From Betaproteobacteria bacterium (lineage in GTDB: Bacteria > Pseudomonadota > Gammaproteobacteria > Burkholderiales > Burkholderiaceae_C), in assembly GCA_013289985.1 (NCBI GenBank), contig JABCYW010000026.1:1-55616 (forward strand): a DNA stretch of 55,616 nt. Reading direction: 5' to 3'. The position numbers were made by a program, and so were the translations under genes. The notes under the pieces are model-generated. The model was not told the DNA's origin. It searched no databases and saw nothing but the letters and a program-made list of their open reading frames with translations. Positions 17,221-37,763 of the stretch are shown in pieces. Position 1 is the stretch's first letter. Every line of letters starts with the position of its first letter.

Positions 17221-17510
17221 TCGCACTCGCTCTGCCGAAGACTTTCGGTCATTTGGAATTGACGGTATTTGCGACGGTATGACTTGCAAAGTTCTCACCA
17301 ATCTCGTGCCGCCAACACAGAGAAGAGACGAGTTTTGTTGACAACAGCACCCGCATGCTTGCGCGGCTGCGTTATTGAGCCGCCTCAATTGGCTTCGATG
17401 CCTCGGGATGACGCTTGTCCCGTATCTGACAGGGAAGACGAATCAGCCCATACGCCTTCAGGAAAGCCAAGGCCCTGCGCGAGGGGCGCCTTGAAGATCG
17501 ACGCAACGTC
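17221..17510. other. Accessory spacer between integrase relic and effector
   Basis: 290 bp of lower coding quality containing no recognisable gene or clear terminator. It probably holds degraded element DNA. Confidence 0.4.
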
Positions 17511-18839
17511 TCACGACGCTGGATCGGGGGCGGCAACGACAGGCGGGCGTTCCGGCATATGAAGTCGATATGCCTTGTCGATGATCGCGTCTGAGGTGGC
17601 CGGACGTGTCGCCTCGTGGATATTCAGGTTGTAGGCCGTGCGCGCTGTTGCGGCGGCCATGAGCTCTTGCGACAACGCGGGTTGCGCGGCCAGGCTCGCC
17701 GTGGTGGCCGCCGCGAAGCGGTCATCAATCGTCGAATGCTCGGTGAAGGGCGGGAATTCCGGAGGTTCGCTCGTGTAGCGCCGAAGCGCGCTCTCGGTCA
17801 TCTCGTGCAGGGGGCCGCCGGGGCCGGCGGCATCTCTCGCGTGATGCATGGCCTGCAAGTTGCGCAAGCCGGTGTCGCGCCCGAAAGTCTGGTTGAGGTC
17901 GGCGTCCCGCATCACCGAGGCCAGCGAGGAGTCCTTTGCGCGCACGGGCGGACCGTCCATCCAGGAGTCCAGCACGATCGAGTGCCTTGGCTCGGTCTCG
18001 CCGCCGGGAAGGATCTTGTCGGGCCGGTCGAGCTGGGCCCACGCGTGCTTGAGTTCACGACTGCCCTTCGAAGAAACAGTCTCGCCCCGTTCCTGCAGCA
18101 TGACGGAATACCGGCGCGAGTTGATGGCCGCATTGTGATCGCAGTTGCCGGCGTGGTATGCAAGGGCGACGCCGACGTTCGCGTTCACGCCGAACATCTT
18201 GCCGGCCTCATAGGCGACCTGGCTGCGTGCCGCGCTGGCCCAGTCTGACGCGATGAGATCGGAGAGGATGTTTCCGCGCCCATGCTTGAGATCCTGCCGG
18301 GTACGGTGAACGGTCGCCGTGGCGTTGTCCAGATGCTCGATCTCCGATGGATCTTCGATAGGGTCGCCCTGGACGCGCGAACCGAGCTGATATGCGGCTT
18401 GTTGGAGCTCATGCTGCTGCAGGGGCGAAGTCCTGTTCGGTCGCGTCGAACGGGGCAGGTCGGAACCGTTCCACTTGCCGGTGCCGACGAAGACTCCGGT
18501 TCGCTCGTCATTGCGACCGAGGTGTGCGGCACCGGCGTTCGGCGTGCCATCTTCGTCGGGGCCGGAACGGAGGCGGGGATTGCCTCTAGGCGGCTCGAGT
18601 TTCAGTTTCGCCGGTCGATTGAAGCCTGCTGCGGGAAGTGGTGGCGGCACGGGCACCCTTCGCGCCATCGAATCTGGACCGGCTGCGGCGGACGGTTCGC
18701 GCCGCATCTGTGCGAGCTCAGTCAAGGAACCCTGCGCTGGCCGGTTCGTCGGACCCTCGTTGCTCTCGTGCACGGCGGGCCGCGCGTCTCGCGGGTTCGG
18801 GACGAGTACGAGCGAGTTCGCGGCTTCTATGCGTGGCAT
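17511..18839 (-). CDS. HopX/XopE (AvrPphE) family type III effector
   Basis: A 442-residue protein. Residues 1 to about 150 are Pro/Arg/Ser-rich and disordered, as in type III secretion substrates. The conserved core carries GRGNILSDL (about residue 188) and a transglutaminase-like Cys-His-Asp set: Cys in YHAGNCDHNA (C233), His in LKHAWAQL (H265) and Asp in SIVLDSWMDGPPV (D291). Order, spacing and the D-x-W-x-(D/N)-GP-x-V motif match the AvrPphE/HopX/XopE family of plant-pathogen effectors from memory of the family. The start at 18839 (MPRIEAANSLVLV) has an AAGGA site 10 nt upstream; an ATG at 18893 would leave almost no leader after the predicted promoter. A PIP box and -10 lie upstream. It sits alone beside an integrase relic, suggesting horizontal acquisition. 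Function in this host is inferred. Confidence 0.85.
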   Translation of the reverse strand: MPRIEAANSLVLVPNPRDARPAVHESNEGPTNRPAQGSLTELAQMRREPSAAAGPDSMARRVPVPPPLPAAGFNRPAKLKLEPPRGNPRLRSGPDEDGTPNAGAAHLGRNDERTGVFVGTGKWNGSDLPRSTRPNRTSPLQQHELQQAAYQLGSRVQGDPIEDPSEIEHLDNATATVHRTRQDLKHGRGNILSDLIASDWASAARSQVAYEAGKMFGVNANVGVALAYHAGNCDHNAAINSRRYSVMLQERGETVSSKGSRELKHAWAQLDRPDKILPGGETEPRHSIVLDSWMDGPPVRAKDSSLASVMRDADLNQTFGRDTGLRNLQAMHHARDAAGPGGPLHEMTESALRRYTSEPPEFPPFTEHSTIDDRFAAATTASLAAQPALSQELMAAATARTAYNLNIHEATRPATSDAIIDKAYRLHMPERPPVVAAPDPAS

Positions 18840-18908
18840 CTCGTTTCCTTCATTGTTGCCGGGTGTCGCGCCGGCTTGCACACGATGAATCACCGTACAG
18901 ATCTGGGC

Positions 18909-19277: not shown

Positions 19278-21650
19278 TTACAGGGAGTCGGACAAGCTGA
19301 TCCCGATCGTCCGCGGTCGCAGGCGGTAGCCTTCATTGACGAATTCGACGTTCGGACGCTGGATCACCTTCTGGTCGTTGAAGAGGTTCTTGGCGAAGAG
19401 CGAGACTTGCCATGCGTTGTAGTTGGCGCCGGCGCTCAGGTTGATGGTGTTGTAGCCGGGTCGGGCGTAATCAGGGTCTGTCTTCACCAGGGAACCGTGG
19501 CTCGAGCCCACCCAGGACGATGACCCCCGCACGAAGCCGCTGACACTGCCGGTGATGTCGAAGCTGTAGTCAGCGGTCACGGTGACGTTGTAGCGCGGCA
19601 CTCCCGCGACAGGGTCGCCGGACTTGACGTTCAGCAAAGCCACGTCGCTGGTCACCTCGGCGTTCGTGTAGCCGCCGGCCACGCCCAGCGTCAGATTGGC
19701 GTTCGGCTTGCCCTTGACCTCGAGCTCGAAGCCGACGCTCTTGGCCCCGCCGATGTTGGTTTCATAGTCGAACCCGCAAATCGGCAGTTGCACGTCCTGC
19801 TGGAGCTTTTTCCAGTTGATATAGAAGGCAGCGAGGTTGACGTTGAGTCGGTTGTCCAGCAACTTGGACTTGCTGCCCAACTCGTAGCTCCAGAGGCTGT
19901 CGGGGCCATAGGACGCGGGGACGCCGTTGGTCAGTCCCTGGTTTTTCAGATCCTGTCCGCAGACGCCTGTCGGGATGAAGCGGTTTTCGCTGCCCAGCCG
20001 CGCGCCCTTGGCCGCGGTGCCATACACCGTCTCGTTCGGAGTGACCTCCCAGGTCAGCGCCACCTTCGGAGTGATCGCGCTTCCGTTGGCGCCACGCTGG
20101 ATGTGCTGCGGGCCGTCGGCGAAGTAGTAGTTCAGGTCCTGATCGAGCGAGTCTTTCGACTTGATGTACCGTGCCCCTGCAGTGCCGTAGAAACTGGGGG
20201 TGAAGTGATAGACCAACTCGCCGAACAGCGCGGCCTGCGTCGTCTTGTAGCGGCGAAGACTCTGGTAGACCATGTCGTTCGGCGTGGCGCTGCCAAGGAG
20301 GTTCGGATCGGCCGGGTCCACGCCGAACGACGAGAACGTGTCGGTGATGCCGAACACCGGCTCGTTGTCATAGAGCGCCGTTCGCAGGTTCGAGTAGTAC
20401 GCGCCGGCGATCCATGTCAGTGGGGTTCGTCCGGGTTCGTAGGACTTCGATGCCAGCCGAAGTTCCTGCGAGAACTGGAAGACGCGGTTGTTCAGGAGCA
20501 CCGCCGAAGGGAGAACGCCCACGGCGTCGCCCAATCCCACGGGCGAATCGGGCAAGCCGTTGAGGACGCTGCCGATATATTGGCTGTTGACTGCCGTCCC
20601 GTCCTGCGTGCGGTTGAAGATGCGCTGGAAGTAGCTCGACACCGACGTGAGGTCGGCGCCGCCGAAGTCGTAGCCCACGGTCAAGCTGGGGACGGTCAGC
20701 TTGTCGACGCCGGGCTCACGCACGGTCTTGCTGGTCTTGTTCGGCGCCAGGTCGAGATAGCTGGCGTCGATGTCGCCGGTGTGCACTTGCTGATAGAACA
20801 GCGACGGCGCGATGCTCAGCTGCGCCGTGGGCTTCCATTTGACGCCCAGCCGCAAGACCGTATCCCGCTCCCAGTTGATGTTCGAGGCGACCTTGTGGCC
20901 GCTCGAGTCGACCTGGTCGATGTAGCCGCTGGTGCGGCCCTGGAGCACGCCGACACGCACCGCCAGTTCCCCGGGAATCAAGGGTGCGTTCTGGACGGCC
21001 GTGAGTTGATAGTTGACGCCGCCACCCTGGGTGCTCGATATCTCGGACGTGAGATCGGTACTCGTTTGGTGCAGATCCGGCTGATTGCTGATGAACTTCA
21101 CGGTGCCGCCCATCGAGCCCGCACCGTAAAGGGTCCCTTGCGGGCCGCGCAGCACCTCGATGCGCTCCAGGTCGAAGAACTTCGGTTCGGCGGCGCCGAG
21201 ACTGAAGATGTTGCGCGTGGTCATCGATACGTCGTCGAGATAGATGCCCGTGGTATTCGATCCGGCAGAGGACGCCACGCCGCGCATCTCGATGTTGCTC
21301 AGTCCCGGCCCTGCGCCACCCAGGCCCTGGCCCGAGAACGACACGTTGGGAACCGCGCGGGTCACATCCGTGATGTCGGTGATGTGCTGGGCCTGCAACT
21401 CCTCGCCGCCGAGCACCGACATGCTGATCGGCACCTTGCTGGCATCTTCCTTGCGTTTCTGTGCCGTGACGGTCACCGTCTGGATCTGGTCCGAGCGCGC
21501 TGCGGGCTGCGCTGGGGTGGGCTTGGCGGCGCCGTCAGGGGCGGGGGCTTCGTCAGCATGCGCCGGCGGTAGCACGATGGCGCCGACAACGCCGGCGACG
21601 AGGGTCATCGAGGCGATTGCAGGATGGCGGGCGAGGCGGTTCTTGGGCAT
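19278..21650 (-). CDS. TonB-dependent outer-membrane receptor
   Basis: A 790-residue receptor. It has a signal peptide (MPKNRLARHPAIASMTLVAG, cleavage after PPAHA near residue 32), a TonB box region (IQTVTVTAQKRKEDASKVPI, about residue 55), a plug domain (ITDVTRAVPNVSFSGQG; IEMRGVASSAGSNTTGIYLD; ERIEVLRGPQGTLYGAGSMG) and a 22-strand barrel ending YRLRPRTIGISLSDSL. It takes up a ligand across the outer membrane using TonB energy. The plug sequence resembles the broad group of carbon-source receptors rather than clear siderophore receptors. A 12-bp HutC-type operator lies 64 bp upstream, tying it to the divergent regulator/transporter locus. The start is chosen at the signal peptide with GGAG upstream. 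Confidence 0.9.
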   Translation of the reverse strand: MPKNRLARHPAIASMTLVAGVVGAIVLPPAHADEAPAPDGAAKPTPAQPAARSDQIQTVTVTAQKRKEDASKVPISMSVLGGEELQAQHITDITDVTRAVPNVSFSGQGLGGAGPGLSNIEMRGVASSAGSNTTGIYLDDVSMTTRNIFSLGAAEPKFFDLERIEVLRGPQGTLYGAGSMGGTVKFISNQPDLHQTSTDLTSEISSTQGGGVNYQLTAVQNAPLIPGELAVRVGVLQGRTSGYIDQVDSSGHKVASNINWERDTVLRLGVKWKPTAQLSIAPSLFYQQVHTGDIDASYLDLAPNKTSKTVREPGVDKLTVPSLTVGYDFGGADLTSVSSYFQRIFNRTQDGTAVNSQYIGSVLNGLPDSPVGLGDAVGVLPSAVLLNNRVFQFSQELRLASKSYEPGRTPLTWIAGAYYSNLRTALYDNEPVFGITDTFSSFGVDPADPNLLGSATPNDMVYQSLRRYKTTQAALFGELVYHFTPSFYGTAGARYIKSKDSLDQDLNYYFADGPQHIQRGANGSAITPKVALTWEVTPNETVYGTAAKGARLGSENRFIPTGVCGQDLKNQGLTNGVPASYGPDSLWSYELGSKSKLLDNRLNVNLAAFYINWKKLQQDVQLPICGFDYETNIGGAKSVGFELEVKGKPNANLTLGVAGGYTNAEVTSDVALLNVKSGDPVAGVPRYNVTVTADYSFDITGSVSGFVRGSSSWVGSSHGSLVKTDPDYARPGYNTINLSAGANYNAWQVSLFAKNLFNDQKVIQRPNVEFVNEGYRLRPRTIGISLSDSL

Positions 21651-22087
21651 GCTGACTCCACATTGATAGACGAATGTATGGGCGACTCGAACATATCTCT
21701 TGAGTTGCCTAAGTTGTCTATACAAGTTTCGTGCCCGTTGCAAATCGATGCCTGCTCACCGCGGCAGCTCTCCGGAGCGATCCGCTCGGCGCCCATCCTT
21801 GATGCATTTCTCGTCTTGGGTCGCACCAAACCGCGCGCATTTCCGCCGGCTGACCTCAAATCGGTGCAAGACGAATGCGCGTTCGGACGCAGGTCGAGGC
21901 GGCGCGCTCGATGACTCCCCTATACGACATGACGGGAGCGCCGTCACGTGTGCCGGGTCACTCGCGCTCGGGGAAGGGCGAAGGCGTCCGTCCAGGCGGA
22001 CGCAAGTTCCGCCCCGGTTCGTACCGGCCTTGCGCGGACCGGGTCGGGAGACAAGTCGCAGCTCGGAGCCGGCCCGCGACCGCGCCC
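21651..22087. promoter_or_regulatory. Promoter region of the receptor gene and spacer to the regulator gene
   Basis: 437 bp. It contains the operator at 21714-21725. The rest (21730-22087) has only low-quality ORFs on both strands. Confidence 0.5.
21714..21725. promoter_or_regulatory. HutC-type operator, copy 1
   Basis: TTGTCTATACAA, containing GTCTATAC, which fits the HutC-subfamily GntR consensus GT-N-TA-N-AC. It is the exact reverse complement of the copy at 22884-22895. It is placed 64 bp upstream of the TonB-receptor ATG. Confidence 0.8.
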
Positions 22088-22849
22088 TCAACGTCGAGTC
22101 GAATTCTGTTCGCTCTTGATTCGCAGGCGCCGGCTCGGCACAAGCAGGCGCACGGTCGTGACGGCCACCTGATCCACCCAGGTCCGTCGCCGGATTTGCA
22201 GGCAAGGGTCGCTACGGCTGACCGCCAGAAGCTTGGCCTCCCAGTTCTCGGGCAAGACGGCCTCGATTTCGTGCTCGGCCCGGGTCCAGGGTGCAATCCG
22301 GCTCAAGTAGCTGTTGGGTGTCACCACCGCATAGTTCTGCGTGAGGTAGTCAGGCGCCATTTCCGGGTTGACGTGGCGCTCCTCCAGCTGCACGGGCACC
22401 TCGTTCTCGGTATGCACGATGACGGAGTAGTAGATGAAGCATCCCAGCTCGACGCTCAGCGCGTCGGCGACTTCCGGCGAGGCGCGCACCTGCTCCAGCA
22501 TCACCAGGCGCGCGGCGTGCTTCTGGCCGCGCTCCGCGATTTCATCTGCGATGTTGCGGATCTCGAAGATGCTCGATTGCACCTTGGGCGGCGCCACGAA
22601 CGTGCCCGAGCCTTGAACCCGCGTGAGCTCCCCCTCCTGCGCCAGTTCTCGCAACGCTCGATGAACCGTCATCCTGCTGACCCCGAACTCGGCGACCAGT
22701 TCGTTTTCGGACGGAATTCTCTGCTGAGGCAGCCATTTCCCCTCGCGGATGCGCGCCAGGATCATCTCCTTGACGCCGATGTAGAGGGCTTGCGCGTCAG
22801 GCCGATCGATGGCGAGGCTTCCAGAAAAGGCCTTGGGCGTCTTTGCCAT
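22088..22849 (-). CDS. hutC-like: GntR-family transcriptional regulator, HutC subfamily
   Basis: A 253-residue regulator. The N-terminal winged helix-turn-helix is about residues 20-85 (PSENELVAEFGVSRMTVHRA then LRELAQEGELTRVQGSGTFV), followed by a UTRA/chorismate-lyase-fold effector domain (HTENEVPVQLEERHVNPEM; a C-terminal RRTWVDQVAVTTVRLLVPS segment) as in HutC. HutC proteins sense urocanate or related ligands and repress histidine-use genes; here the ligand is unknown. It lies between the two operator copies, with copy 2 overlapping its own promoter, so autoregulation is likely. The start MAKTPKAFSG has AAAGGA upstream. Confidence 0.92.
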   Translation of the reverse strand: MAKTPKAFSGSLAIDRPDAQALYIGVKEMILARIREGKWLPQQRIPSENELVAEFGVSRMTVHRALRELAQEGELTRVQGSGTFVAPPKVQSSIFEIRNIADEIAERGQKHAARLVMLEQVRASPEVADALSVELGCFIYYSVIVHTENEVPVQLEERHVNPEMAPDYLTQNYAVVTPNSYLSRIAPWTRAEHEIEAVLPENWEAKLLAVSRSDPCLQIRRRTWVDQVAVTTVRLLVPSRRLRIKSEQNSTRR

Positions 22850-22883
22850 TTGGATCCTTTGAGTTATGCTGGCCGACAACAAG

Positions 22884-22895
22884 TTGTATAGACAA
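22884..22895. promoter_or_regulatory. HutC-type operator, copy 2
   Basis: TTGTATAGACAA, the exact reverse complement of copy 1. It lies 34 bp upstream of the regulator start and about 57 bp upstream of the binding-protein gene, so it can control both divergent transcripts. Confidence 0.82.
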
Positions 22896-22952
22896 CTCAC
22901 ATCTATGCCAAGCAGGCACTTTAACCTCGGGGAGCATCCGTCGTCGGCAGCG

Positions 22953-23846
22953 ATGTGGCGCCGCCGTCCCGGCACGACGCACGCACGAGGGCCATGGCCG
23001 GCGCCATTTTCATGGCGCTGCGGATGTCTTGTGTTCCTGGCGCTGGCCCTTCAGCCAGTGGCAGCCCTCGCCAAGGAATGGAAGCAGGTCGTGATCGCTA
23101 CCGAAGGCGGGTACGCGCCGTGGAACCTCACCCGGCCAGATGGCACGCTTGACGGCTTCGAGGTCGAACTGGCCAAGCTGTTGTGCGGCCGCTTGAAGCT
23201 CGAATGCCGCCTGCAGGCGCAGGGCTGGAACGGCATGCTGGATGCGCTTCAGGCGGGAAAGTTCGACATGGTGATGGATGCGATATCCATCACCGAAGAG
23301 CGCAAGCGCGTCATCGCCTTCTCGCGCCCCTACGCCTCGACGCCCGCCACTTTCGCCGCCTTGAAGGGCGGCGCGCTGAGTCACTTGCCCGGCACCGGAA
23401 CAAGGCTCCTGCTAAGCGGTGACGCGCAGCGCGATGCCGCCGCGATCGCATCGCTCAAGCTCGCGCTGAAAGGCAAGACGATCGGCATCCAGTCGTCGAC
23501 GGTGTACGCCAAGTTCATCTACCAGAACTTCCAGGACACGTCGCGCATCAGCGAATACCGCATGGCCGCGGAGCACGACTTCGACTTGATGGCCGGCCGG
23601 ATCGACGTGGTCTTCGACGACGCGACCTATTTCGCGTCGCTCGCGCCGGAGCCCGGACGAAGTGAGCCGATTCCCACCGGTCCGCAGCTCGCCGGGCCAG
23701 TCTGGGGTGCAGGCGAAGGATTCGGCTTTCGCAAGTCCGATCCCGAACTGAAGGCTTTGTTCGATCAGGCCATCGGCACCGCACTGGCCGACGGCAGCAT
23801 CGCGCGGCTGAGCCTCAAGTGGCTCAAGATCGACGTCGCGCCGTGA
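22953..23846 (+). CDS. Amino-acid ABC transporter, periplasmic substrate-binding protein
   Basis: A 297-residue type II solute-binding protein of the polar amino-acid family (SBP_bac_3). It has a signal peptide (hydrophobic core CLVFLALALQPVAALA, cleavage before KEWKQ), ATEGGYAPWNLTRPDGTLDG at the first lobe, the signature GFEVELAKLLC, and GKTIGIQSSTVYAKF in the second lobe. The sequence is closest in style to the lysine/arginine/ornithine/histidine binders. The start is uncertain: ATG 22953 gives a normal signal peptide, while ATG 22905 would add 16 residues. It is the first gene of the operon with hisQ/hisM/hisP-like genes and the lyase homologue, next to a HutC operator. Confidence 0.88.
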   Translation: MWRRRPGTTHARGPWPAPFSWRCGCLVFLALALQPVAALAKEWKQVVIATEGGYAPWNLTRPDGTLDGFEVELAKLLCGRLKLECRLQAQGWNGMLDALQAGKFDMVMDAISITEERKRVIAFSRPYASTPATFAALKGGALSHLPGTGTRLLLSGDAQRDAAAIASLKLALKGKTIGIQSSTVYAKFIYQNFQDTSRISEYRMAAEHDFDLMAGRIDVVFDDATYFASLAPEPGRSEPIPTGPQLAGPVWGAGEGFGFRKSDPELKALFDQAIGTALADGSIARLSLKWLKIDVAP

Positions 23847-24607
23847 TGGAACGGATCACCGGCTTGATCGCGTTGCTCGGCTTCGGCCCCGAGGGCTGGG
23901 GCGGGCTGCTCCTGGGCGCCGCGCTCATGACATTGGCGGTCAGCGTGGCGGCGCTGCTGGTGGGCGCTCTGCTGGGCGCCGCCGCGGCGGCAGCGAAACT
24001 CTCCGGGTATCGCTGGCTGCGCGGGCTGGGCGGCGCCTACACGACGGTCTTTCGCGGGCTGCCCGAGTTGCTGGTCATCTACATGGTCTATTTCGGCGGC
24101 TCGGCGCTCGTCACGAGCGTGGCGGAATTCTTCCGCATCCCGGGCTACGCGGGCTTGCCGGTGTTCGCGGCCGGGGCGATCGCGGTCGGCGTGATCTCGG
24201 GCGCGTACCAGGCGGAGGTCTTTCGCAGCGCCTACCTCGCCATCGCGCCCGGCGAACTCGAAGCGGCGCGCTCGGTCGGAATGCCGTTGCTGATGCGGTG
24301 GCGCCGCATCGCGGTGCCGCAGGTGCTGGTGTTCGCGATGCCTGGCATCGGCAACGTGTGGCAGCTCACGCTGAAGGATTCGGCACTGATCTCCGTCACC
24401 GGCCTCGCCGAGATCATGCAGACAGCGCAGACCGGCGCCGGCTCCACGCGGCAATACCTCGTGTTCTATATGGCGGGCGCAGCCTTGTATCTGGCGCTCA
24501 CGGCCCTGTCGGGCGGCGTCCTCGTCCGTGCGGAGCGACGCCTGGCGCGCAGGATTCCTTTGGCTGCCGGCGCGCACCCCGGCTCATCCATGGGCAGCAA
24601 GTCGTGA
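23846..24607 (+). CDS. Amino-acid ABC transporter permease (HisQ-like)
   Basis: A 253-residue inner-membrane permease with about five helices and the EAA loop (ELEAARSVGMPLLMRWRRIA, about residues 130-150) that contacts the ATPase. The N-terminal half has TVFRGLPELLVIYMVYF, typical of the HisQ/GlnP group. The ATG shares one base with the upstream stop (TGATG), so it is translationally coupled. Confidence 0.92.
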   Translation: MERITGLIALLGFGPEGWGGLLLGAALMTLAVSVAALLVGALLGAAAAAAKLSGYRWLRGLGGAYTTVFRGLPELLVIYMVYFGGSALVTSVAEFFRIPGYAGLPVFAAGAIAVGVISGAYQAEVFRSAYLAIAPGELEAARSVGMPLLMRWRRIAVPQVLVFAMPGIGNVWQLTLKDSALISVTGLAEIMQTAQTGAGSTRQYLVFYMAGAALYLALTALSGGVLVRAERRLARRIPLAAGAHPGSSMGSKS

Positions 24608-25335
24608 TCGACGTCGCTTTCCTCGTCGACACGATGGCGCAACTGCTGGCGGCGTTGCCCACGACGATCGCGCTCATGGTGTCGTCCGTGGCCCTGGGCG
24701 GCGTGCTCGCCGCGGGCCTGACGACGATGCGCCTCAGCGGGCGCCCCATCTACGTCGGCATGGCCCGCGCCTACGTGTTCGTCTTCCGTGGATCCCCGCT
24801 GCTCATCCAGCTGTTCCTCATCTATTACGGACTGGCCCAGTTCGACGCCGTGCGGGCGAGCCCGTTCTGGCTGCTGATGCGCTACCCGTTCGGCTGCGCC
24901 ACGCTGGCGCTCGCACTGTGCACGGCGGCCTACACCTCCGAGATCTTTCGTGGCGGCGTGCAGGCAGTGCCGCGGCGCGAAGTCGAAGCGGCGCGCGCCT
25001 GCGGCATGTCGGGCTGGCTGCTGCTGCGCCGCATCGTCGCGCCGCTGGCCTTGCGCCAGGCATTGCCCGCCTACTCGAACGAACTGATCCTGATGGTCAA
25101 GTCGACCACGCTGGCCGGCTTGGTGACGGTGTGGGAGGTGACCGGCGTGGCCCAGCGCATCATCGCCAGCACCTATCGCACGGGCGAAGTCTTCCTGTGC
25201 GCGGCAACCATCTACCTGGCGCTCAATTTTCTGATCGCCCGTGGCGCCGCGAGCCTGGAATACCGCCTGAGCGCACATCGCAGGCCGATGCTGCCGAACC
25301 TCAACCCCAACCCATCGCCTCGTCATGCCGAATGA
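24604..25335 (+). CDS. Amino-acid ABC transporter permease (HisM-like)
   Basis: A 243-residue second permease, starting at GTG (VIDVAFLVDTMAQLL), overlapping hisQ by 4 nt (GTGA). It carries VFVFRGSPLLIQLFLIYYGL and the EAA loop (REVEAARACGMSGWLLLRRI). With the HisQ-like subunit it forms the heterodimeric channel. Its end overlaps the ATPase start by 11 nt. Confidence 0.92.
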   Translation: MIDVAFLVDTMAQLLAALPTTIALMVSSVALGGVLAAGLTTMRLSGRPIYVGMARAYVFVFRGSPLLIQLFLIYYGLAQFDAVRASPFWLLMRYPFGCATLALALCTAAYTSEIFRGGVQAVPRREVEAARACGMSGWLLLRRIVAPLALRQALPAYSNELILMVKSTTLAGLVTVWEVTGVAQRIIASTYRTGEVFLCAATIYLALNFLIARGAASLEYRLSAHRRPMLPNLNPNPSPRHAE

Positions 25336-26104
25336 AGCTTCTCCCGCCGTGGCGTTGCACGACATCCACAAGAGCTTCGGCGAATTGCAGGTCTTGCGCG
25401 GCGTGTCCCTGACCGCCGCGCAGGGCGACGTGATCTCCATCCTGGGCAGCAGCGGCTCCGGAAAGAGCACGCTCCTGCGTTGCATCAATCTGCTGGAATC
25501 CCCCGACGAAGGCGCGATCTCGATCGGCGGCGAAGCGATCGAGTTGCGCCGTCGGCGCGCCGGCGGCCTGGAGCCCGCACGTGTCGCCCAGGTCGATCGC
25601 TTGCGTTCGCAGGTGGCGATGGTGTTCCAGAGCTTCAACCTGTGGTCGCACCTGACGATCCTCGAGAACCTGATCGAGGCGCCGGTGCACGTGCAGAAGC
25701 GCCGTCGCTTGGAGTGCATCGACGAGGCCATGGGACTGCTCGAGAAGGTCGGCATCGCCGACAAGCATGCGCACTACCCGGCCCATTTGTCGGGTGGCCA
25801 GCAACAACGCGCGGCCATCGCACGTGCACTGGCGATGCGCCCCAAGCTGATGCTGTTCGACGAGCCGACATCGGCGCTGGACCCCGAGCGCGTCGGGGAA
25901 GTCTTGCGCGTGATGCGCGCGCTCGCGGAGGAAGGTCGCACGATGCTGGTCGTCACGCATGAAATGAGCTTTGCCAGACAGGTTTCGAACCGCGTGGTGT
26001 TCATGCACCAGGGACAGATCGAGGCCGATGGCAGTCCGGACGAATTGTTCGGCGGTGAGAAATCAGAGCGGTTCCGCCGCTTCACCGCAGAGGTGGCGCG
26101 ATGA
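25325..26104 (+). CDS. Amino-acid ABC transporter ATP-binding protein (HisP-like)
   Basis: A 259-residue ATPase. Walker A is ILGSSGSGKSTLLRCIN, the Q-loop MVFQSFNLWSHLT, the signature LSGGQQQRAAIARAL, Walker B LMLFDEPTSALDPE, and the H-loop VVTHEMSF. The FNLWSHLTILEN and long RRRRAGGLEPARVAQVDRLR insert match the HisP group. It energises import of the operon's substrate. Stop and the next start overlap (ATGA at 26101-26104). Confidence 0.94.
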   Translation: MPNEASPAVALHDIHKSFGELQVLRGVSLTAAQGDVISILGSSGSGKSTLLRCINLLESPDEGAISIGGEAIELRRRRAGGLEPARVAQVDRLRSQVAMVFQSFNLWSHLTILENLIEAPVHVQKRRRLECIDEAMGLLEKVGIADKHAHYPAHLSGGQQQRAAIARALAMRPKLMLFDEPTSALDPERVGEVLRVMRALAEEGRTMLVVTHEMSFARQVSNRVVFMHQGQIEADGSPDELFGGEKSERFRRFTAEVAR

Positions 26105-27654
26105 GCTCGGCGACCGTTCGCGACGCCGATGCCCATGCCGCCTCCGGTGTCGTGTGGCGGGATCGGCCGCTCCATTGGCGTGACGTGGCCGCGGTTGCCG
26201 CCGGCGCGCAACTGCGGGTCGCGGACTCGGCGCGACTGCGCATCGATACCGCACGAGCCATCGTCGACACGCTGATCGCGCGTGGCATTCCCGCCTATGG
26301 CGTCAATACCGGAGTCGGCGCGCTTTGCAACCAGGCGGTGGATCGCCCCGAACAACGCCGGCTCTCGCGCAACTTGCTGATGAGCCATGCCTGCGGCGTC
26401 GGGCGGCCCCTCGATACCGTGCAGGCACGCGCCATCATTGCAGCGCAGATCAACAACTACGCACATGGACGCTCGGGTGTGCGCTGGGTCGTCGTCGAAC
26501 GCCTGTGCGAGCTTCTGCTCCGGGACTGCGTGCCCGAGGTCCCCTCGCGTGGATCGGTCGGATATCTCACCCATATGGCCCACATCGCGCTCGTCCTCGT
26601 GGGCGAGGGGCATGCGCGGCTCTCAGGGGTGCGCATGACCGGGGCCGAGGCTTCGATGCGCCTGGGTCTGCCGCCCCTGGTGCTGGAAGCCAAGGAAGGT
26701 CTGAGCCTCGTCAACGGCACTCCGTGCGTGACGGGCCTCGCCTGCCTGGCGCTGGCCCGCACCGAGCGACTGCTCGAGTGGGCCGACGTCGTCGCCGCGA
26801 TGAGCTTCGAAAATCTGGGTGGCCAATCGGCGGCCTTTGCCAAGGAAGCGCTGATCATGCGCACGTCGCCGGGCTTGGCGCGGGTTGGCGAAAACTTTCG
26901 CGCGCTGCTGGCTGGCAGCGAGATGCTCGCCGCCAGCCAAGGCGCGCGCCTGCAGGATGCGCTCAGCTTGCGCGCGGTACCGCATGTGCACGGGGCGGCG
27001 CGCGATGTCTTCGCGCATGTGGCCGAAGTGGTCAACCGCGAACTCGATTCCGCGACCGACAATCCGCTGGTCGGCGGCACACCGGAAGCGCCCGAGGTCT
27101 TCTCCGGTGCGCATGCCGTGGGCGCGGCGATCGGTCTCGCGATGGACTCACTGTCCACCGCCGTCGCCGAGGTGGCAGCAATGGCCGAACGCCGCCTCGA
27201 CCGCTTGCTCAACCCCATGGTCAGCGGCCTTCCGCCGTTCCTGTCGGCGGAGGGCGGGGTCTGCTCGGGATTCATGATCGCGCAGTACACCGCGGTCTCC
27301 CTGGTCGCCGAGAACCGCCGGCTCGCCGCCCCCTCCAGCCTGGACGGCGGCATCACGTCCGCATTGCAGGAAGACCATCTCAGCCACGCCACTCCGGCTG
27401 CCGCGGCCGCGCTCGCCATCATCGAGAACGCCGAACGCATCCTGGGCATCGAATTGCTGGCTGCGGCCCAGGCCTACGAACTACAGCCTGCTGCGCTTGC
27501 CAGGGCGCCCGGAACCGACGCGATCTACCGCCGCCTGCGCGAAGCAATCCCGACGTACAACGATGATCGTCCGCTCGCGGTCGACATGAATGCGGCGGGC
27601 CGATTCATCAGCAACGTCTCGCTCGAGTCTGTTGCGCTCCGGCCATCCGCGTGA
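26101..27654 (+). CDS. Aromatic amino-acid lyase (HAL/PAL family) homologue lacking the MIO triad
   Basis: A 517-residue protein of the histidine/phenylalanine ammonia-lyase fold. Family landmarks are AYGVNTGVGAL (Tyr66, equivalent to catalytic Tyr53 of HutH), NLLMSHACGVG, VNGTPCVTGLA (Asn205), QDALSLRAVPHVHG (Gln285, Arg291), SATDNPLV and LQEDHLSHATP (Glu424). The MIO loop, normally GSVGASGDLAPLAH, is GSVGYLTHMAH (residues 151-161): the Ala-Ser-Gly that cyclises to MIO is cleanly missing, Asp is Tyr, and the Tyr of QDPYS is Leu288. Ordinary MIO-dependent deamination is therefore not expected. The frame is otherwise intact and long, so it is not decayed. It is the last gene of the ABC-transporter operon, overlapping it by 4 nt. 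It could be a binding protein, a lyase with another mechanism, or an isomerase. No hutU/I/G is nearby. Confidence 0.9.
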   Translation: MSSATVRDADAHAASGVVWRDRPLHWRDVAAVAAGAQLRVADSARLRIDTARAIVDTLIARGIPAYGVNTGVGALCNQAVDRPEQRRLSRNLLMSHACGVGRPLDTVQARAIIAAQINNYAHGRSGVRWVVVERLCELLLRDCVPEVPSRGSVGYLTHMAHIALVLVGEGHARLSGVRMTGAEASMRLGLPPLVLEAKEGLSLVNGTPCVTGLACLALARTERLLEWADVVAAMSFENLGGQSAAFAKEALIMRTSPGLARVGENFRALLAGSEMLAASQGARLQDALSLRAVPHVHGAARDVFAHVAEVVNRELDSATDNPLVGGTPEAPEVFSGAHAVGAAIGLAMDSLSTAVAEVAAMAERRLDRLLNPMVSGLPPFLSAEGGVCSGFMIAQYTAVSLVAENRRLAAPSSLDGGITSALQEDHLSHATPAAAAALAIIENAERILGIELLAAAQAYELQPAALARAPGTDAIYRRLREAIPTYNDDRPLAVDMNAAGRFISNVSLESVALRPSA

Positions 27655-30094: not shown

Positions 30095-30784
30095 GGATCG
30101 ATCTCGAAAAGATGTGTCGTCAGCTCCAGTGAGAACACGACGGCGTCTGCCGTGCGCGATTCCTTCCGGAGTCGTGGCGCAACTGATCGAATCGAAGAGG
30201 ACATGGAGCGTCCAGCTCCCTTCCAAGTCGCAGGCATCCCGTGCGATGCAGGCGCGTGCATGCGCGAGCCCACGCCGCGCGTGGTCTGTTCGAGGACTAG
30301 GGAAGCGAGCGCGGACCTGTACCGCTCGGGCGGCTCAACAGGTGACGCAGAACGTCACGCGTGGTCTCCGGCTTCGCCTGGAAGACAACGCGGTCGATGA
30401 TTCGACAGTGCGAATGAAGCTGGATTCGCTGGACGTATAGGCCGCACCGATTGGTGGTGGGATGTAGGGAAATGGCCCCTGCAAGAGGTGCGGGACGACT
30501 ATTTTTCAGTGTAGCAGCGTCTCAAGCCGGTGTCGTGGGACGCGAACCTCGGCAGCGGCTACAACGTGAACATGGGCATCCTGCTCGCGTTCATCTTTGT
30601 CTGGAACATGGTGGGTGCCAATGCTCGTCGCGCCGCTTCAGGCAGTCGAGGCGGAGCCGCATCGCTGCCCCCGCTCCACAGGCGTTCATTTCAGCAGACG
30701 TAACGAAGCGACGCCCAAGTTCATTGTTGCGGATCGTCGATCGAGATACCTTTGGCTCCGGAAAACCTGGACGCTGGAGACCTG
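30095..30784. other. Intergenic region upstream of mdcA
   Basis: 690 bp separating the monooxygenase and mdcA starts (divergent). No complete gene. A short stretch at about 30535-30625 reads YNVNMGILLAFIFVWNMVGA, like one transmembrane segment of a lost transporter gene. The mdc promoter and any MdcR site must be in the last 200-300 bp; I could not pin the motif. Confidence 0.4.
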
Positions 30785-32443
30785 ATGCAGACCGAAGCCC
30801 CGCCTCGCGCATGGAACACGCGCCGCGCCGAAAAGGCCCAGCGCCTTGCGCGTGCGGCCGTGATCGCCGATGGGCGCGTCGTGCCGAGCTGCGATATCGT
30901 TGCGTTCCTGGAAGCGGTGATCGCGCCGCACGACCGGGTCGTGCTCGAGGGCAACAATCAGAAGCAGGCCGACTTCCTGTCGCGCTCGCTCGCGCAGGTC
31001 GACCCCGCCAAGGTCCACGGCCTGCACATGATCATCCCGAGCGTGAGTCGGGCCGAGCAGCTCGACTTGTTCGAGCGCGGCATCGCGCGCAAGCTCGATT
31101 TTTCGTATGCCGGCGCGCAGAGCCTGCGCATCTCCCAGTTCCTTGCTGACGGACTCCTCGAGATCGGTGCGATCCACACCTACATCGAGCTCTACGGGCG
31201 GCTCTATGTGGACCTGACGCCGAACGTCGTGCTGGTCGCGGGCTTCAAGGCCGACCGGGCCGGCAACCTCTACACCGGCGCGAGCACCGAGGACACACCG
31301 GCGCTCGTGGAAGCTGCGGCGTTCCGCGACGGCATCGTCATCGCGCAAGTCAATGAAATCGTCGACGATGTCGGCGACCTGCCGCGCGTGGACATCCCGG
31401 GCTCGTGGATCGACTTCGTCGTGCAGGCCGACAGGCCTTTCTTCATCGAGCCGCTCTTCACGCGCGACCCGCGCCTCGTGAAGCCGGTGCATGTCCTGAT
31501 GGCGATGATGGCGATCCGCGGCATCTACGAGCGTCACCAGGTGCAGTCGCTCAACCATGGCATCGGCTTCAATACCGCGGCGATCGAGCTGATCCTGCCG
31601 ACCTACGGCGAACAGCTCGGCCTCAAGGGCAAGATCTGCCGCCACTGGGCCCTGAATCCGCACCCGTCGCTGATTCCGGCCATCGAGAGCGGCTGGGTCG
31701 AGAGCGTGCACTCGTTCGGAGGCGAGTTGGGCATGGAGCGCTATGTCGCGGCGCGACCCGACGTGTTCTTCACGGGCTCCGACGGCTCGATGCGCTCGAA
31801 CCGGATGCTGTGCCAGCTGGCCGGCCAGTATGCGGTGGACCTGTTCATCGGTTCGACGTTACAGGTCGACGGCGACGGCCACTCGTCGACCGTCACGCGT
31901 GGCCGGCTCTCCGGCTTCGGCGGTGCGCCCAACATGGGTCACCAGCCGGGTGGGCGCCGCCATTCGAGCGCGGCCTGGCTCAGCATGTTGCAGACCGATA
32001 GCCCGCTCGAGCGCGGACGCAAGCTGGTGGTGCAGATGGTGGAGACCTTCCAGGCGGGCGGCAAGCCGACCTTCGTCGAATCCCTCGACGCGGTACAGGT
32101 TGCCAGCGACTCGGGAATGGCGCTGGCGCCCGTGATGATCTACGGTGACGACGTCACGCACGTGTTGACGGAAGAAGGCATCGCGTACCTGTACAAGGCG
32201 CAGTCGCTTGCGCAGCGCCAGGCCATGATCGCCGCCGTGGCGGGCGTGACGCCGGTGGGGATGCGCGCAGACCCGACGACGACGCAGCGGCTTCGCAGCG
32301 ACGGTTTGGTGGCTCTGCCCGAAGACCTCGGTGTGGATCGCAGGCAGGCGACACGCTCGCTGCTGGCGGCCAAGAGCATGGCGGATCTGGTCGAGTGGTC
32401 GGGCGGGTTGTACGAGCCTCCGGCGCGCTTCAGGAGCTGGTGA
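30785..32443 (+). CDS. mdcA: Malonate decarboxylase alpha subunit (acetyl-S-ACP:malonate ACP transferase)
   Basis: A 552-residue CoA-transferase-like protein. It begins MQTEAPPRAWNTRRAEKAQR and contains VVLEGNNQKQADFLSRSLA, YVDLTPNVVLVAGFKADRAG and the conserved GGAPNMGHQPGGRRHSSAAW near residue 380. It exchanges malonate for acetate on the acyl carrier protein (MdcC), the first step of biotin-independent malonate decarboxylation. GGAG lies upstream of the start. It opens a seven-gene operon in which neighbours overlap or nearly touch. Confidence 0.96.
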   Translation: MQTEAPPRAWNTRRAEKAQRLARAAVIADGRVVPSCDIVAFLEAVIAPHDRVVLEGNNQKQADFLSRSLAQVDPAKVHGLHMIIPSVSRAEQLDLFERGIARKLDFSYAGAQSLRISQFLADGLLEIGAIHTYIELYGRLYVDLTPNVVLVAGFKADRAGNLYTGASTEDTPALVEAAAFRDGIVIAQVNEIVDDVGDLPRVDIPGSWIDFVVQADRPFFIEPLFTRDPRLVKPVHVLMAMMAIRGIYERHQVQSLNHGIGFNTAAIELILPTYGEQLGLKGKICRHWALNPHPSLIPAIESGWVESVHSFGGELGMERYVAARPDVFFTGSDGSMRSNRMLCQLAGQYAVDLFIGSTLQVDGDGHSSTVTRGRLSGFGGAPNMGHQPGGRRHSSAAWLSMLQTDSPLERGRKLVVQMVETFQAGGKPTFVESLDAVQVASDSGMALAPVMIYGDDVTHVLTEEGIAYLYKAQSLAQRQAMIAAVAGVTPVGMRADPTTTQRLRSDGLVALPEDLGVDRRQATRSLLAAKSMADLVEWSGGLYEPPARFRSW

Positions 32444-33369
32444 TGAGCGCGATCGTCCACAACGCTCGTTCGATCGTCGATTCCGCCTGCCATGCAACAT
32501 GGGCGCAGGAGCTTGGCGCGCACGTGGTCGCTTCGCTGATCGACGAGGCCTGCCTGTCACCGAAGCCCGGCCTCGTGGACAGCCGGGGCAACGGCTCGCA
32601 CGCCGATCTCGACCTGGCGCTGATGCAGCGCTCCGCGCGTGCGCTGGAGCCGGCCTTCGCATCGATGGCCGCCGCCGGGGCCTTGGCAGGCGCGCCGACG
32701 GTCGCCTTGCGCGAGACCCTGGGACGCATCGGACGCGACGCCGAAGCCACGATGATGGCCACCACCCGCGGCGTGAACACCCATCGCGGGGCCATCTGGG
32801 CGCTCGGGTTGCTCGCGGCCGCCGCAGCGACCGGGCGCGGCAATGCGGACGCAGCGCGGACGGCAGCGATCGCCGGGGCCATCGCGAGGCACCCGGACCG
32901 GGGCGCCCCCGGGCGTACGGGTCACAAGGGCGAGCAGGCCTGTCGCCAGTTCAAGGTTGCGGGGGCCCGAGGACAGGCACAGGCCGGATTCCCGCACCTG
33001 ATCGAGCTGGGGTTGCCCGAACTCAGGCGAAGCCGCGCACGTGGCGACGGCGAGGCGTCGGCACGCCTGAACGCATTGCTGGCGATCATGAGCTGCCTCG
33101 ACGACACCTGCGTGCTGGCGCGCGGCGGCGTGGTGGCCTTGCGGCAGGTGCAGGACGGCGCGTCGGGTGTCCTGGCGGCCGGCGGGGCCGGCACCCTGGC
33201 CGGCCGGCGCGCGTTGCGCAGTTTCGGGCAACAGGCAGTGGCCGCAAACGTGTCGCCCGGTGGCTCCGCGGACCTGCTCGCTGCCACCCTGTTTCTCGAC
33301 CGCATCGACCCTGCCGTCGACGCGCGACCCACGCACCAACCTTTGCGGAGGCTTCATGGAGAAGCATGA
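32443..33369 (+). CDS. mdcB: Triphosphoribosyl-dephospho-CoA synthase
   Basis: A 308-residue CitG/MdcB-family protein. Conserved stretches are ASLIDEACLSPKPGLVDSRG (about residues 28-47), MATTRGVNTHRGAIWALG, HKGEQACRQF and LAIMSCLDDTCVLARGG. It makes the 2'-(5''-triphosphoribosyl)-3'-dephospho-CoA precursor of the MdcC prosthetic group from ATP and dephospho-CoA. The start shares one base with the mdcA stop (TGATG). Confidence 0.95.
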   Translation: MSAIVHNARSIVDSACHATWAQELGAHVVASLIDEACLSPKPGLVDSRGNGSHADLDLALMQRSARALEPAFASMAAAGALAGAPTVALRETLGRIGRDAEATMMATTRGVNTHRGAIWALGLLAAAAATGRGNADAARTAAIAGAIARHPDRGAPGRTGHKGEQACRQFKVAGARGQAQAGFPHLIELGLPELRRSRARGDGEASARLNALLAIMSCLDDTCVLARGGVVALRQVQDGASGVLAAGGAGTLAGRRALRSFGQQAVAANVSPGGSADLLAATLFLDRIDPAVDARPTHQPLRRLHGEA

Positions 33370-33682
33370 ATATCGCTACCCTGCCGGCGCGCCGGCGACC
33401 GGCCGAGTCATCGTCGGCGTCGTCAGCTCAGGGGATCTGGAGGTGTTGCTCGAGCCGGCGCCCGCCGGCACGACCACCGTGCGCCTGACGACGTCGGTCG
33501 ACGGCTACGGTCGCGTGTGGCAGGCACAGCTCGATCGCATCTTCCAGGGGTCGTCGGTCGGCCCGGCGGGCCCTGCGGTCGACCTCGAGATCAACGACTT
33601 CGGCGCCACGCCCGGCGTCGTCGGCATGCGCATTGCGCAAGCCTTCGGCTCGATCGGTGCGTCCCAGGGAGTCAGGCCATGA
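33356..33682 (+). CDS. mdcC: Malonate decarboxylase acyl carrier protein (delta subunit)
   Basis: A 108-residue carrier protein. GVVSSGDLEVLLE (about residues 21-33) contains the serine that carries the phosphoribosyl-dephospho-CoA group, most likely Ser25 by analogy with the Klebsiella protein. LEINDFGATPGVVGMRIAQA near the C terminus is typical of the family. A GGAGG ribosome site precedes the ATG; it overlaps mdcB by 14 nt. Confidence 0.94.
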   Translation: MEKHEYRYPAGAPATGRVIVGVVSSGDLEVLLEPAPAGTTTVRLTTSVDGYGRVWQAQLDRIFQGSSVGPAGPAVDLEINDFGATPGVVGMRIAQAFGSIGASQGVRP

Positions 33683-34533
33683 GCGGCGCTGCAGCGCTGT
33701 TGGCGCGCGACAGTTTTGTCGAGCTGGCCGCACGTGAGCGAGTCCGAGCCTTGATGGACGGCCGTGCGTTTCGCGAGCTCATCGACCCGTTCGAGCGCGT
33801 CACATCGCCCTGGCTGGCGCGTCAGGGCGTGGTCACGCAGGCGGATGACGGGGTCGTGGTCGCCAAGGGCGAGATCGCGGGCCAGCCAGCGGTGATCCTC
33901 GCGATCGAGGGGGCGTTCCAGGGTGGCAGCCTCGGCGAAGTGGGCGGCGCAAAGATCGCCGGCGCACTCGAACTCGCCGCGCAGGACAACCGGCGCGGCA
34001 TTCCGACGCGAGCGGTGATCCTCTTCGAGACCGGCGGCGTGCGCCTGCAGGAGGCTAACCTCGGCCTGGCGGCGATCGCCGAGATCCATGCAGCGATCGT
34101 CGATCTCCGACGCTACCAGCCCGTGATCGGCGTCATCGCCGGCACGGTGGGGTGTTTCGGCGGCATGTCGATCGCCGCCGGCCTGTGCAGCTACCTGGTC
34201 GTGACGCGCGAGGCACGCCTCGGGCTGAATGGCCCCCAGGTGATCGAGCAGGAAGCGGGCATCGTCGAATACGATTCTCGCGATCGCCCCTTCGTCTGGA
34301 GTTTCACGGGCGGACGACAGCGCGCGGATACCGGGCTGGCCGATGTCTTCGTCGACGACGATGCGTCTCTCCTGCGGCAGGCCGTGATCGCGCTGTTCGA
34401 GCGTGGTCGGCCGGCGACCGAGCGCAGCGACGCCTGGCGCCACTACCTCGATCGCCTGTCTCGCTACGATCCGGCGCGCCAGGCGACGCCGGAGATCGTC
34501 CGACAACTGCTCGAACCGGGAGCGTCCTCGTGA
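33679..34533 (+). CDS. mdcD: Malonate decarboxylase beta subunit
   Basis: A 284-residue crotonase-fold carboxyltransferase subunit. SFVELAARERVRALMDGRAF is at the N terminus, ILFETGGVRLQEANLGLAA is at about residue 112 and GTVGCFGGMSIAAGLCSY is at about 155, lining the decarboxylation site. With MdcE it decarboxylates malonyl-S-ACP to acetyl-S-ACP. The start overlaps mdcC by 4 nt (ATGA). Confidence 0.95.
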   Translation: MSGAAALLARDSFVELAARERVRALMDGRAFRELIDPFERVTSPWLARQGVVTQADDGVVVAKGEIAGQPAVILAIEGAFQGGSLGEVGGAKIAGALELAAQDNRRGIPTRAVILFETGGVRLQEANLGLAAIAEIHAAIVDLRRYQPVIGVIAGTVGCFGGMSIAAGLCSYLVVTREARLGLNGPQVIEQEAGIVEYDSRDRPFVWSFTGGRQRADTGLADVFVDDDASLLRQAVIALFERGRPATERSDAWRHYLDRLSRYDPARQATPEIVRQLLEPGASS

Positions 34534-35336
34534 ACATCGAAACGACAAGTCGTGGCGCCACCTGGTTGGCGGCGTTGACCGACGGCGCCGCGCCACTGAC
34601 CGGCTACCCGCCATCGGTGCAGGTGGTCGACGGAGCCCTCGCGGACCAGCGTTGTCGCTATGTCGCCGTGCTTCCGGACGCCGCCAATGCCTGGCCACGC
34701 GCCCGCACCGGCGAGATCGGCGTCATCGAGGGCTGGGAGCTGGCCCGGGCAGTGCACGAGGTGATCGACGCGGATCGCGCAGCACCGAAACGCGCGATCG
34801 TCGCCGTGGTCGATGTCACCAGCCAGGCTTACGGCCGGCGCGAGGAGGCGTTCGGCATCCATGAGGCCCTGGCCGGCGCTGCAGGCGCCTACGCACAGGC
34901 TCGCCTGGCCGGCCACCCGGTGATCGCGCTGATCGTGGGCAAGGCGATGTCGGGCGCGTACTTGGCGCATGGCTACCAGGCGAACCGGATCATCGCGCTC
35001 AACGATGCGGGGGTCATGGTCCACGCGATGGGCAAGGCGGCGGCGGCGCGGGTCACGATGCGCAGCGTCGAGGACTTGGAGCGGCTCGCGGCCGAGGTGC
35101 CACCGATGGCCTACGACATCTCCAGCTACGCCACGCTGGGCCTGCTGTGGCAACTGCTCGACGTGGATAGCGCGGATCGACCGTGCGCGGTGGACCTCGC
35201 CGATGCGCGTCACGCGCTGATCGTGGCCCTTGACGACATCCGCGCCGATCCGTCGCCGGATCTGCGCAGCCGGCTGGGCGGCCCGAATCGCGGCGCGTCG
35301 TCGTTGGTGCGCGAAAAGCTGCTCGCGCAGTGGTGA
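34530..35336 (+). CDS. mdcE: Malonate decarboxylase gamma subunit
   Basis: A 268-residue crotonase-fold partner of MdcD. Motifs: VDVTSQAYGRREEAFGIHEA (about residue 93) and VIALIVGKAMSGAYLAHGYQ then IIALNDAGVMVHAMGK. It starts at GTG (VNIETTSRGATWLAAL), overlapping mdcD by 4 nt. It completes the catalytic beta-gamma pair. Confidence 0.95.
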   Translation: MNIETTSRGATWLAALTDGAAPLTGYPPSVQVVDGALADQRCRYVAVLPDAANAWPRARTGEIGVIEGWELARAVHEVIDADRAAPKRAIVAVVDVTSQAYGRREEAFGIHEALAGAAGAYAQARLAGHPVIALIVGKAMSGAYLAHGYQANRIIALNDAGVMVHAMGKAAAARVTMRSVEDLERLAAEVPPMAYDISSYATLGLLWQLLDVDSADRPCAVDLADARHALIVALDDIRADPSPDLRSRLGGPNRGASSLVREKLLAQW

Positions 35337-35342
35337 GCCGAC

Positions 35343-36038
35343 ATGGGCGCCGCCGCTGTTGCTGATGCTGCCGGTCATCGCCCACACGACCTGTTGTGGG
35401 TCGACGATGCGTCGGCGCTGATCCCGGTCGACGTGTTTCCCGAATGGGCCATGACGCCCTGGCTCTCGGTCGCCCCGGTCGTGGTACGCAGGGCCGGCGT
35501 GCTGCGCGGCGATCGCATCCCCGTGGGCCTGCGTGGCGCGATGCGCAGCGAACGATGTGCCGCGCACGTCGCGGCCAATCGGGTCACGCGCAGCGTCAGC
35601 CCCGAGGACATCGCGCGTCGCGTGTCGAACCGCGCGCAGGTCCGCGCCTCGACGCTGCCCTGCCTGTGCACGCTGGCGCGCATCGCCCCCGCGCTCGACG
35701 GGATGTCGCTGGGTTGGGGCGTCACCGGCGGTGTCGGTTTCACGTTGGCGAGCGGCTTCGACGTCCTGCGCCCTGACAGCGATCTCGATCTGCTCGTTCG
35801 GGCGCCGCGGCGCGGCGATATCGACGCGCTCCACGCGGTGGCGGCGCTCGTCGTCGACGCCGCGTCGGGCATCGACGTGCAAGTGGAGACACCCTGCGGC
35901 GCCTTCGCGCTGAAAGAGTGGCTGCGCACTGGTGGGCCGGTGCTCCTGAAGACCACGGACGGGCCAGTGTTCTGCGACGATCCCTGGCACCCGGACGCCC
36001 TCGACATCGCCCGCGCGACGGCCGGCGCAGGCGCGTGA
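35343..36038 (+). CDS. mdcG: Holo-ACP synthase (phosphoribosyl-dephospho-CoA transferase)
   Basis: A 231-residue nucleotidyltransferase-like enzyme. The GFTLASGFDVLRPDSDLDLL segment carries the paired Asp of a metal-binding site (about residues 139-148). HDLLWVDD near the N terminus and VLLKTTDGPVFCDDPW near the C terminus are family motifs. It attaches the prosthetic group made by MdcB to MdcC. It lies 6 nt downstream of mdcE. Confidence 0.94.
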   Translation: MGAAAVADAAGHRPHDLLWVDDASALIPVDVFPEWAMTPWLSVAPVVVRRAGVLRGDRIPVGLRGAMRSERCAAHVAANRVTRSVSPEDIARRVSNRAQVRASTLPCLCTLARIAPALDGMSLGWGVTGGVGFTLASGFDVLRPDSDLDLLVRAPRRGDIDALHAVAALVVDAASGIDVQVETPCGAFALKEWLRTGGPVLLKTTDGPVFCDDPWHPDALDIARATAGAGA

Positions 36039-37758: not shown

Positions 37759-37763
37759 GGGGG

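Follow-up and report, generated by a model that had tools for sequence, protein, structure and literature searches.

A MIO-less branch of the histidine ammonia-lyase fold and its proposed role in the breakdown of N-methylated histidine

Known relatives and a putative lyase without the MIO triad

In histidine ammonia-lyase (HutH), as is established for the family, the MIO cofactor makes the amino group of the substrate leave. One relative is known to act without it: ergothionase (6s7j/6s7q), which, according to PMC13405746, has no MIO, yields trimethylamine and thiourocanic acid, and has been reported in genera that include Burkholderia, Cupriavidus, and Agrobacterium. A first-pass annotation of the DNA studied here knew of no characterized MIO-less member with its motif; this is incomplete, as ergothionase is a characterized member without MIO, although its motif is a different one.

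The protein considered here, a proposed N-methylhistidine (hercynine) lyase of 517 residues, is encoded at positions 26101 to 27654 (plus strand) of the window, as we call the whole 55,616-nucleotide stretch that was analyzed. It matches the Pfam profile PF00221 (Lyase_aromatic, the aromatic amino acid lyase fold family) with 510 bits, and its score with the HutH equivalog TIGR01225, 484 bits, is below the cut-off of 539. At residues 151 to 161 (26551 to 26583, plus strand), where HutH has GSVGASGDLAPLAH in the sequence alignment, it reads GSVGYLTHMAH. This segment is 3 residues shorter, in frame, than in 30 homologous loci of its own and related genomes, whose triad is ASG in 29 cases and VSG in 1. 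Two alignments fit, one in which Ala-Ser-Gly is deleted and Asp changed to Tyr and another in which Tyr replaces the triad and Asp is lost; the HMMER alignment places this Tyr on the MIO residue. Whichever is chosen, no X-Ser-Gly is left in the segment, and therefore MIO cannot form there.

HutH of Pseudomonas putida (1b8f) and the window lyase have in common the fold, which is complete in the predicted model (TM-score of 0.90 to P. putida HAL), the hut regulon, and the residues for imidazole and carboxylate; Tyr66, Asn205, Arg291, and Glu424 are all kept. In contrast to HutH, the window lyase has no MIO triad, falls below the HutH cut-off, and carries Leu288 for HutH Tyr280 and Ala339 for HutH Phe329, positions that were fixed via the mutant chains 1gkj (Y280F) and 1eb4 (F329A). 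The clean in-frame loss of the triad, the retention of Tyr66 and Glu424, the two replacements, and the completeness of the fold had all been noted in the first-pass annotation and are borne out, the last of them by the predicted model.

An ordinary HutH with ASG, 42% identical to the window lyase, is encoded on another contig of the same genome (G000:C16) within a hut cluster holding hutH, hutU, hutC, hutD, hutI, hutG, and hutF. The motif GS[VA]GYL is common to 87 distinct sequences, the window included. Because so many sequences share it and the genome has a separate ASG-bearing HutH, an assembly or sequencing error was rejected. Of 159 distinct homologous stretches (at least ~380 residues without a stop; shorter or stop-containing matches were dropped), 87 have GS[VA]GYL, 64 an ASG-type triad, and 8 something else. 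The 80 loci obtained by scanning contigs are a selected set, since GS[VA]GYL[TS]H was one of the two patterns used. When the motif pattern was left out, 4 of 399 Burkholderiales genomes gave matches at E ≤ 1e-100; all four, the window's own included, lack the triad, and the three others read GS[VA]GYL. The same motif was found in all 6 plasmid matches examined out of 40 listed, where these proteins are annotated as histidine ammonia-lyase. No ASG-bearing relative more than 44% identical to the window lyase was seen among the matches extracted, and those extracted from three genomes of the same genus were ASG proteins of 33 to 43% identity. The relatives examined for an intact ASG in the same context share the deletion and the same kind of context.

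Tyr66, Tyr155, Asn205, Arg291, His297, Asn321, Ala337, Gln395, Tyr396, and Glu424 are invariant in the 87 sequences; Leu288 is present in 86, and Ala339 in at least 90% of 35 aligned rows. Between the window lyase and a Kaistia relative, dN is 0.22 and dS 1.15. The GS[VA]GYL sequences form one group in the tree, with an SH-aLRT support of 92 (100 without the Paraburkholderia panacisoli protein) and of 90/84 in a second tree.

The P. panacisoli protein (L130/L147; 7907 to 9547 in L147) is the one without Leu288: it has GSVGYLAPEAH and still the Tyr of HutH position 280, and the binding protein encoded next to it has a pocket signature almost identical to that described below. It may be an intermediate form, judging by its sequence; it lies on a long branch, and we are unsure of its place in the tree.

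The operon, its regulation, and the proposed substrate

The operon is intact, as the first-pass annotation had it. The HutC-family (GntR) repressor is encoded on the minus strand at 22088 to 22850 (start read as ATG 22850) and scores 290 bits with TIGR02018 (cut-off 220). The other genes of the cluster lie on the plus strand: a periplasmic binding protein at 22866 to 23846, whose start is uncertain (the first ATG, 22866, precedes the palindrome described below, and the next Met, 22905, follows it); a first ABC permease at 23819 to 24607; a second permease at 24598 to 25335, with an approximate start inside the open reading frame 24298 to 25335, where a second permease match is found in many related loci; and a transporter ATPase of the polar amino acid type at 25325 to 26104, whose last 4 bp are shared with the start of the lyase gene.

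A palindrome, TTGTATAGACAA, is located at 22884 to 22895 between hutC and the binding-protein gene (its start taken as 22905). Our first guess of the HutC site, CTTGTATNNATACAAG, gave 0 matches at up to 3 mismatches; the palindrome, taken afterwards from the stretch between the two genes, was tested next. The pattern TTGTMTAKACAA occurs at 3 places in the 5.96-Mb genome: in the hutU–hutC interval of the hut cluster, before a TonB receptor gene, and between hutC and the binding-protein gene of the lyase cluster. Read backwards as a control, it occurs at 1 place, and 100 shuffles of the window gave none. The TonB-dependent outer-membrane receptor is encoded on the minus strand at 19278 to 21650; since the hut-type palindrome (TTGTCTATACAA, 21714 to 21725) lies 63 bp before its ATG at 21650, it seems to belong to the hut regulon and is proposed as a member of the same regulon as the lyase.

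A looser pattern, TTGTNTANACAA, had 27 occurrences in the 1.78 Mb of 86 related loci, compared with none in any of five Markov controls. Of the 23 Burkholderiaceae loci with an amino acid–type transporter, 21 have it no more than 450 bp ahead of the binding-protein match; it is absent from that position in all 28 other loci with such a transporter, and it stands directly before hutU in L042, L051, L065, L078, and L084. HutC presumably binds the palindrome. The effector of HutC is urocanate; together with the shared palindrome, this makes urocanate the simplest product of the lyase. Proteins 24 to 38% identical to the TonB receptor are encoded in the stretches L056, L077, L089, L090, and L109.

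Neighboring genes were counted in the 86 loci (the 80 of the contig scan and 6 plasmid stretches) at no less than 45% of the reference length, E ≤ 1e-8, and 40 to 60% identity depending on the gene, thresholds because of which divergent neighbors were missed. We found hutC in 58 loci, hutU in 25, hutI in 27, hutF in 32, hutG in 24, and an ordinary hutH in 21; at least one of hutU, hutI, hutF, and hutG was nearby in 35. An amino acid–type transporter was present in 51 loci and a betaine-type (ProU-like) one in 9, and 14 loci had neither a transporter nor hutC nor any of hutU/I/F/G. In Aureimonas (L037), hutF, the lyase gene, hutI, hutG, hutU, and hutD adjoin in this order, and the 25-kb stretch yielded no ordinary hutH. 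In Caballeronia (L051), hutU-hutD-hutI-hutF-hutG come after the transporter and lyase genes, and the ASG protein of the genome is encoded on another contig.

In Sinorhizobium meliloti (L039 and L073), the lyase gene follows a betaine-type ABC transporter near hutC and hutF. We take these loci to be the hutXWV-hutH2 operon, in which hutH2 is called a putative histidase, and hutH2 presumably belongs to the GS[VA]GYL group. PMC3410850 names hutH2 as one of the genes under selection, in a group associated with osmotic tolerance and stress.

The nearest matches of the window binding protein are the octopine-binding OccJ (5ore, 211 bits) and the nopaline-binding NocT (5ot8, 174 bits), followed by 8hqr (143 bits), with far lower scores for the arginine-binding 3tql (92 bits) and the histidine-binding 1hpb (88 bits). 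As a control, the binding protein of a second amino acid–type transporter beside the Paraburkholderia L047 lyase gave a best score of 126 bits (glutamine-type), with 69 bits for histidine and 57 for 5ore. The pocket was mapped on Table 3 of PMC5740067, in LAO numbers, for 53 linked binding proteins, of which 51 belong to the 86 loci and two to L147 and L160. In LAO, Ser92 and Gln122 hold in place the Asp to which a free amino group binds; Ser92 is replaced by Ala in all 53 proteins and Gln122 by Tyr in 52 and Phe in 1, and the amino-group Asp itself, Asp161, is kept in all 53. Phe191 is Trp in 47 and Phe in 6. The site for a basic side chain, which OccJ and NocT, the nearest solved relatives, have in common with the linked proteins, is kept (position 30 is Glu in 50 and Asp in 3; Tyr33, Arg96, and Gln159 are present in all 53). 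Their opine keto-acid signature, as given in the table, is not: Asn111 has become Ala in 53, Thr163 Val in 49, Ile in 3, and Ala in 1, and Ala164 Tyr in 52 and Phe in 1; the linked binding protein has Ala161, Val213, Tyr214, and Asp252, with Trp280, in place of the keto-acid pocket. Eight other matches, less than 45% identical, differ at most of these places. Because Ser92 and Gln122 are replaced and the basic-side-chain site is kept, the residues suggest that the pocket receives a nitrogen bearing substituents, probably three methyl groups.

Among the possibilities raised in the first-pass annotation, a lyase without MIO is the best-supported kind of activity. We consider it probable that the enzyme acts on some N-alpha-substituted histidine and yields urocanate. 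The specific reading that we favor, with somewhat more than even confidence, is a lyase that needs no MIO and acts on N-alpha-methylated histidine, most likely a hercynine (histidine betaine) trimethylamine-lyase forming urocanate. Besides the palindrome, the hut neighbors, and the binding-protein pocket, this reading draws on the betaine-type transporter of nine loci, the N-methyl-L-tryptophan-oxidase–like gene described below, and the invariance of Tyr66, Tyr155, Asn205, Arg291, His297, Gln395, Tyr396, and Glu424.

In this scheme, the TonB receptor and the opine-type ABC transporter would import a histidine with a methylated alpha-nitrogen, most likely hercynine (N-alpha-trimethylhistidine). 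Arg291 would hold the carboxylate and Glu424 the imidazole, Tyr66 would take the beta-proton, and trimethylamine would depart unaided, without MIO, since it is already a good leaving group; by analogy, ergothionase is a precedent for MIO-free trimethylamine elimination in the HAL fold. Tyr155, Leu288, and Ala339, occupying the space of MIO, Tyr280, and Phe329, would make room for trimethylammonium together with the invariant Tyr396, and Leu and Ala at the two HutH positions would fit a larger substituent on the nitrogen. The products would be urocanate and trimethylamine; urocanate would enter the ordinary HutU-HutI-HutF-HutG pathway and induce the genes through HutC. The chances appear evenly balanced that these steps make up an undescribed hercynine route, from TonB and opine-like or betaine-type ABC uptake through the MIO-independent lyase and urocanate to the hut pathway under HutC control. 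In open-access literature searched for MIO-less members or hercynine breakdown, no listed title or displayed opening of an abstract describes a hercynine lyase. Counting against the hercynine reading are the 14 loci without context genes, the 28 transporter loci without the palindrome, and the retention of the binding-protein Asp.

If the proposal is true, histidine betaine, from which ergothioneine is formed, is a compound that soil and plant-associated bacteria can use, and the plasmid records contain a source of trimethylamine mislabeled as histidine ammonia-lyase. The HAL fold would then show how an enzyme does away with a built-in cofactor when a leaving group is already part of its substrate.

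Alternatively, the urocanate might come from a histidine with a different substituent on the alpha-nitrogen (mono- or dimethylhistidine, histopine, or a related opine). The opine type of the binding protein agrees with this, as does an N-methyl-L-tryptophan-oxidase–like gene that immediately follows the lyase gene in 15 of 86 loci (two members scanned gave 413 and 418 bits, cut-off 257). However, the 53 binding proteins have lost the keto-acid signature of OccJ and NocT reported in the table, and the betaine-type transporter of nine loci favors a quaternary amine. Secondary and tertiary amines are, moreover, poor leaving groups without MIO, and we regard such a substrate as unlikely.

Relation to ergothionase

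Ergothionase (of Treponema denticola, 6s7j/6s7q, and of Burkholderia sp. HME13, accession BAM63550) and the window lyase have in common the HAL/PAL fold, the lack of MIO, and Leu at the Tyr280 position; Tyr, Arg, and Glu are kept in both, and the proposed elimination of trimethylamine is the same. The comparison covers 6s7j/6s7q and a Burkholderia protein (L148). Searches of the PDB with a 55-residue piece of the window lyase and an 82-residue piece of an S. meliloti relative did not list 6s7j, and its alignment was therefore reached via this Burkholderia relative (L142/L148), which reads GSIGEADI and shares with 6s7j an aligned Lys.

That the window lyase is itself an ergothionase, splitting ergothioneine (or its sulfonate) into trimethylamine and thiourocanate (or sulfo-urocanate), is a reading with some attractions. 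Ergothionase is the known MIO-less relative, reported from the genera named above, Leu stands at the Tyr280 position in 9 of 9 ergothionase-like rows, and a tree joining these rows and the GS[VA]GYL group in one clade was not rejected (p 0.435 with L155 left out; p 0.305 with L155 and L143 left out). Yet 6s7j ranks only 17th of 39 PDB sequences, both for the window lyase and for its family profile, and is the best PDB match of the Burkholderia protein (E 1e-78). Ergothionase has SSIGEGDI where the window lyase has GSVGYLTH, and its GS[IV]GE[AG]D-type segment is not found in the latter. The Lys of 6s7j and L148 is not kept either, positions 395 and 396 being Gln-Tyr in 87 of 87 GS[VA]GYL sequences; in a looser alignment, 4 of the 9 ergothionase-like rows show Lys in column 396, and the remaining 5 differ, partly through a shift of the pairwise alignment. 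Filing the window lyase as ergothionase is not supported.

The gene contexts differ as well. L148 adjoins a urocanase 51% identical to reference HutU, whereas HutU near GS[VA]GYL lyases is 73 to 89% identical to the reference, as in ordinary hut clusters; the window lyase is accompanied by ordinary hut genes and HutC, with no divergent urocanase alongside. Burkholderia BCC1644 has both types of protein (L124 and L142). We know of no role of HutI, HutF, or HutG in thiourocanate breakdown. An ergothionase activity is thus distinctly improbable; should the HME13 ergothionase belong to the GS[VA]GYL group, the substrate would be ergothioneine.

The ergothionase-like rows form a separate tree group with a support of 100. 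Since the groups are separate and the joint clade is not rejected, one loss of MIO and two losses both fit. Judging from the sequences, GS[VA]GYL is possibly a second MIO-less branch of the HAL fold, with its own cofactor loss, beside the one relative already known.

The ergothionase-like protein of L148 (Burkholderia BCC1644, 5080 to 6717) has a signal-like N terminus, and with its urocanase (about 8112 to 9740) it is a candidate ergothioneine-breakdown pair. Relatives of it are encoded on S. meliloti pSymA (L156 and L157).

Remaining alternatives and surroundings of the cluster

The loss of the electrophile would also suit a pseudoenzyme, whether one that partners or regulates ordinary HutH without catalyzing a reaction or one that serves to bind histidine, and the lyase and ordinary hutH genes do adjoin in some clusters (for example, L086, L088, and L110). 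Against this, the proton-transfer and substrate residues are strictly conserved, 9 of 86 loci have hutU in the vicinity and no ordinary hutH in the stretch examined (some of the stretches are short), and the window's genome carries the two genes on separate contigs; we consider a pseudoenzyme very improbable.

MIO-less deamination of histidine or dehydration of imidazole-lactate would be in keeping with the hut context and with the S. meliloti hutH2 mutant, which Boncompagni is reported to have found in 2000 to grow ~30% worse on histidine, but it can be nearly dismissed: without MIO, ammonia and hydroxide are both difficult to release, histidine-binding proteins are not the nearest relatives of the binding protein, and an ordinary HutH is present in the genome. 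The reported hutH2 growth defect does not follow from the favored hercynine reading and counts against it.

In Rhizobium daejeonense and Ciceribacter (L036 and L072), the lyase is encoded with a fatty acid desaturase–family protein, a PhnD-like binding protein, and cytochrome c, and a two-subunit molybdenum hydroxylase is also nearby; this gene set perhaps represents another route acting on the imidazole ring.

In the window, the tmRNA gene ssrA (16282 to 16654) is directly followed by an integrase arm-binding-domain fragment (16735 to 17259), and for this reason the lyase cluster may sit in an island inserted at ssrA. An open reading frame of 460 aa with no Pfam match (17511 to 18893, minus strand) is located near the possible island border. 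Downstream of the cluster, malonate decarboxylase genes extend from 30752 to 38219, including those for the alpha subunit (977 bits) and a CitG-like protein.
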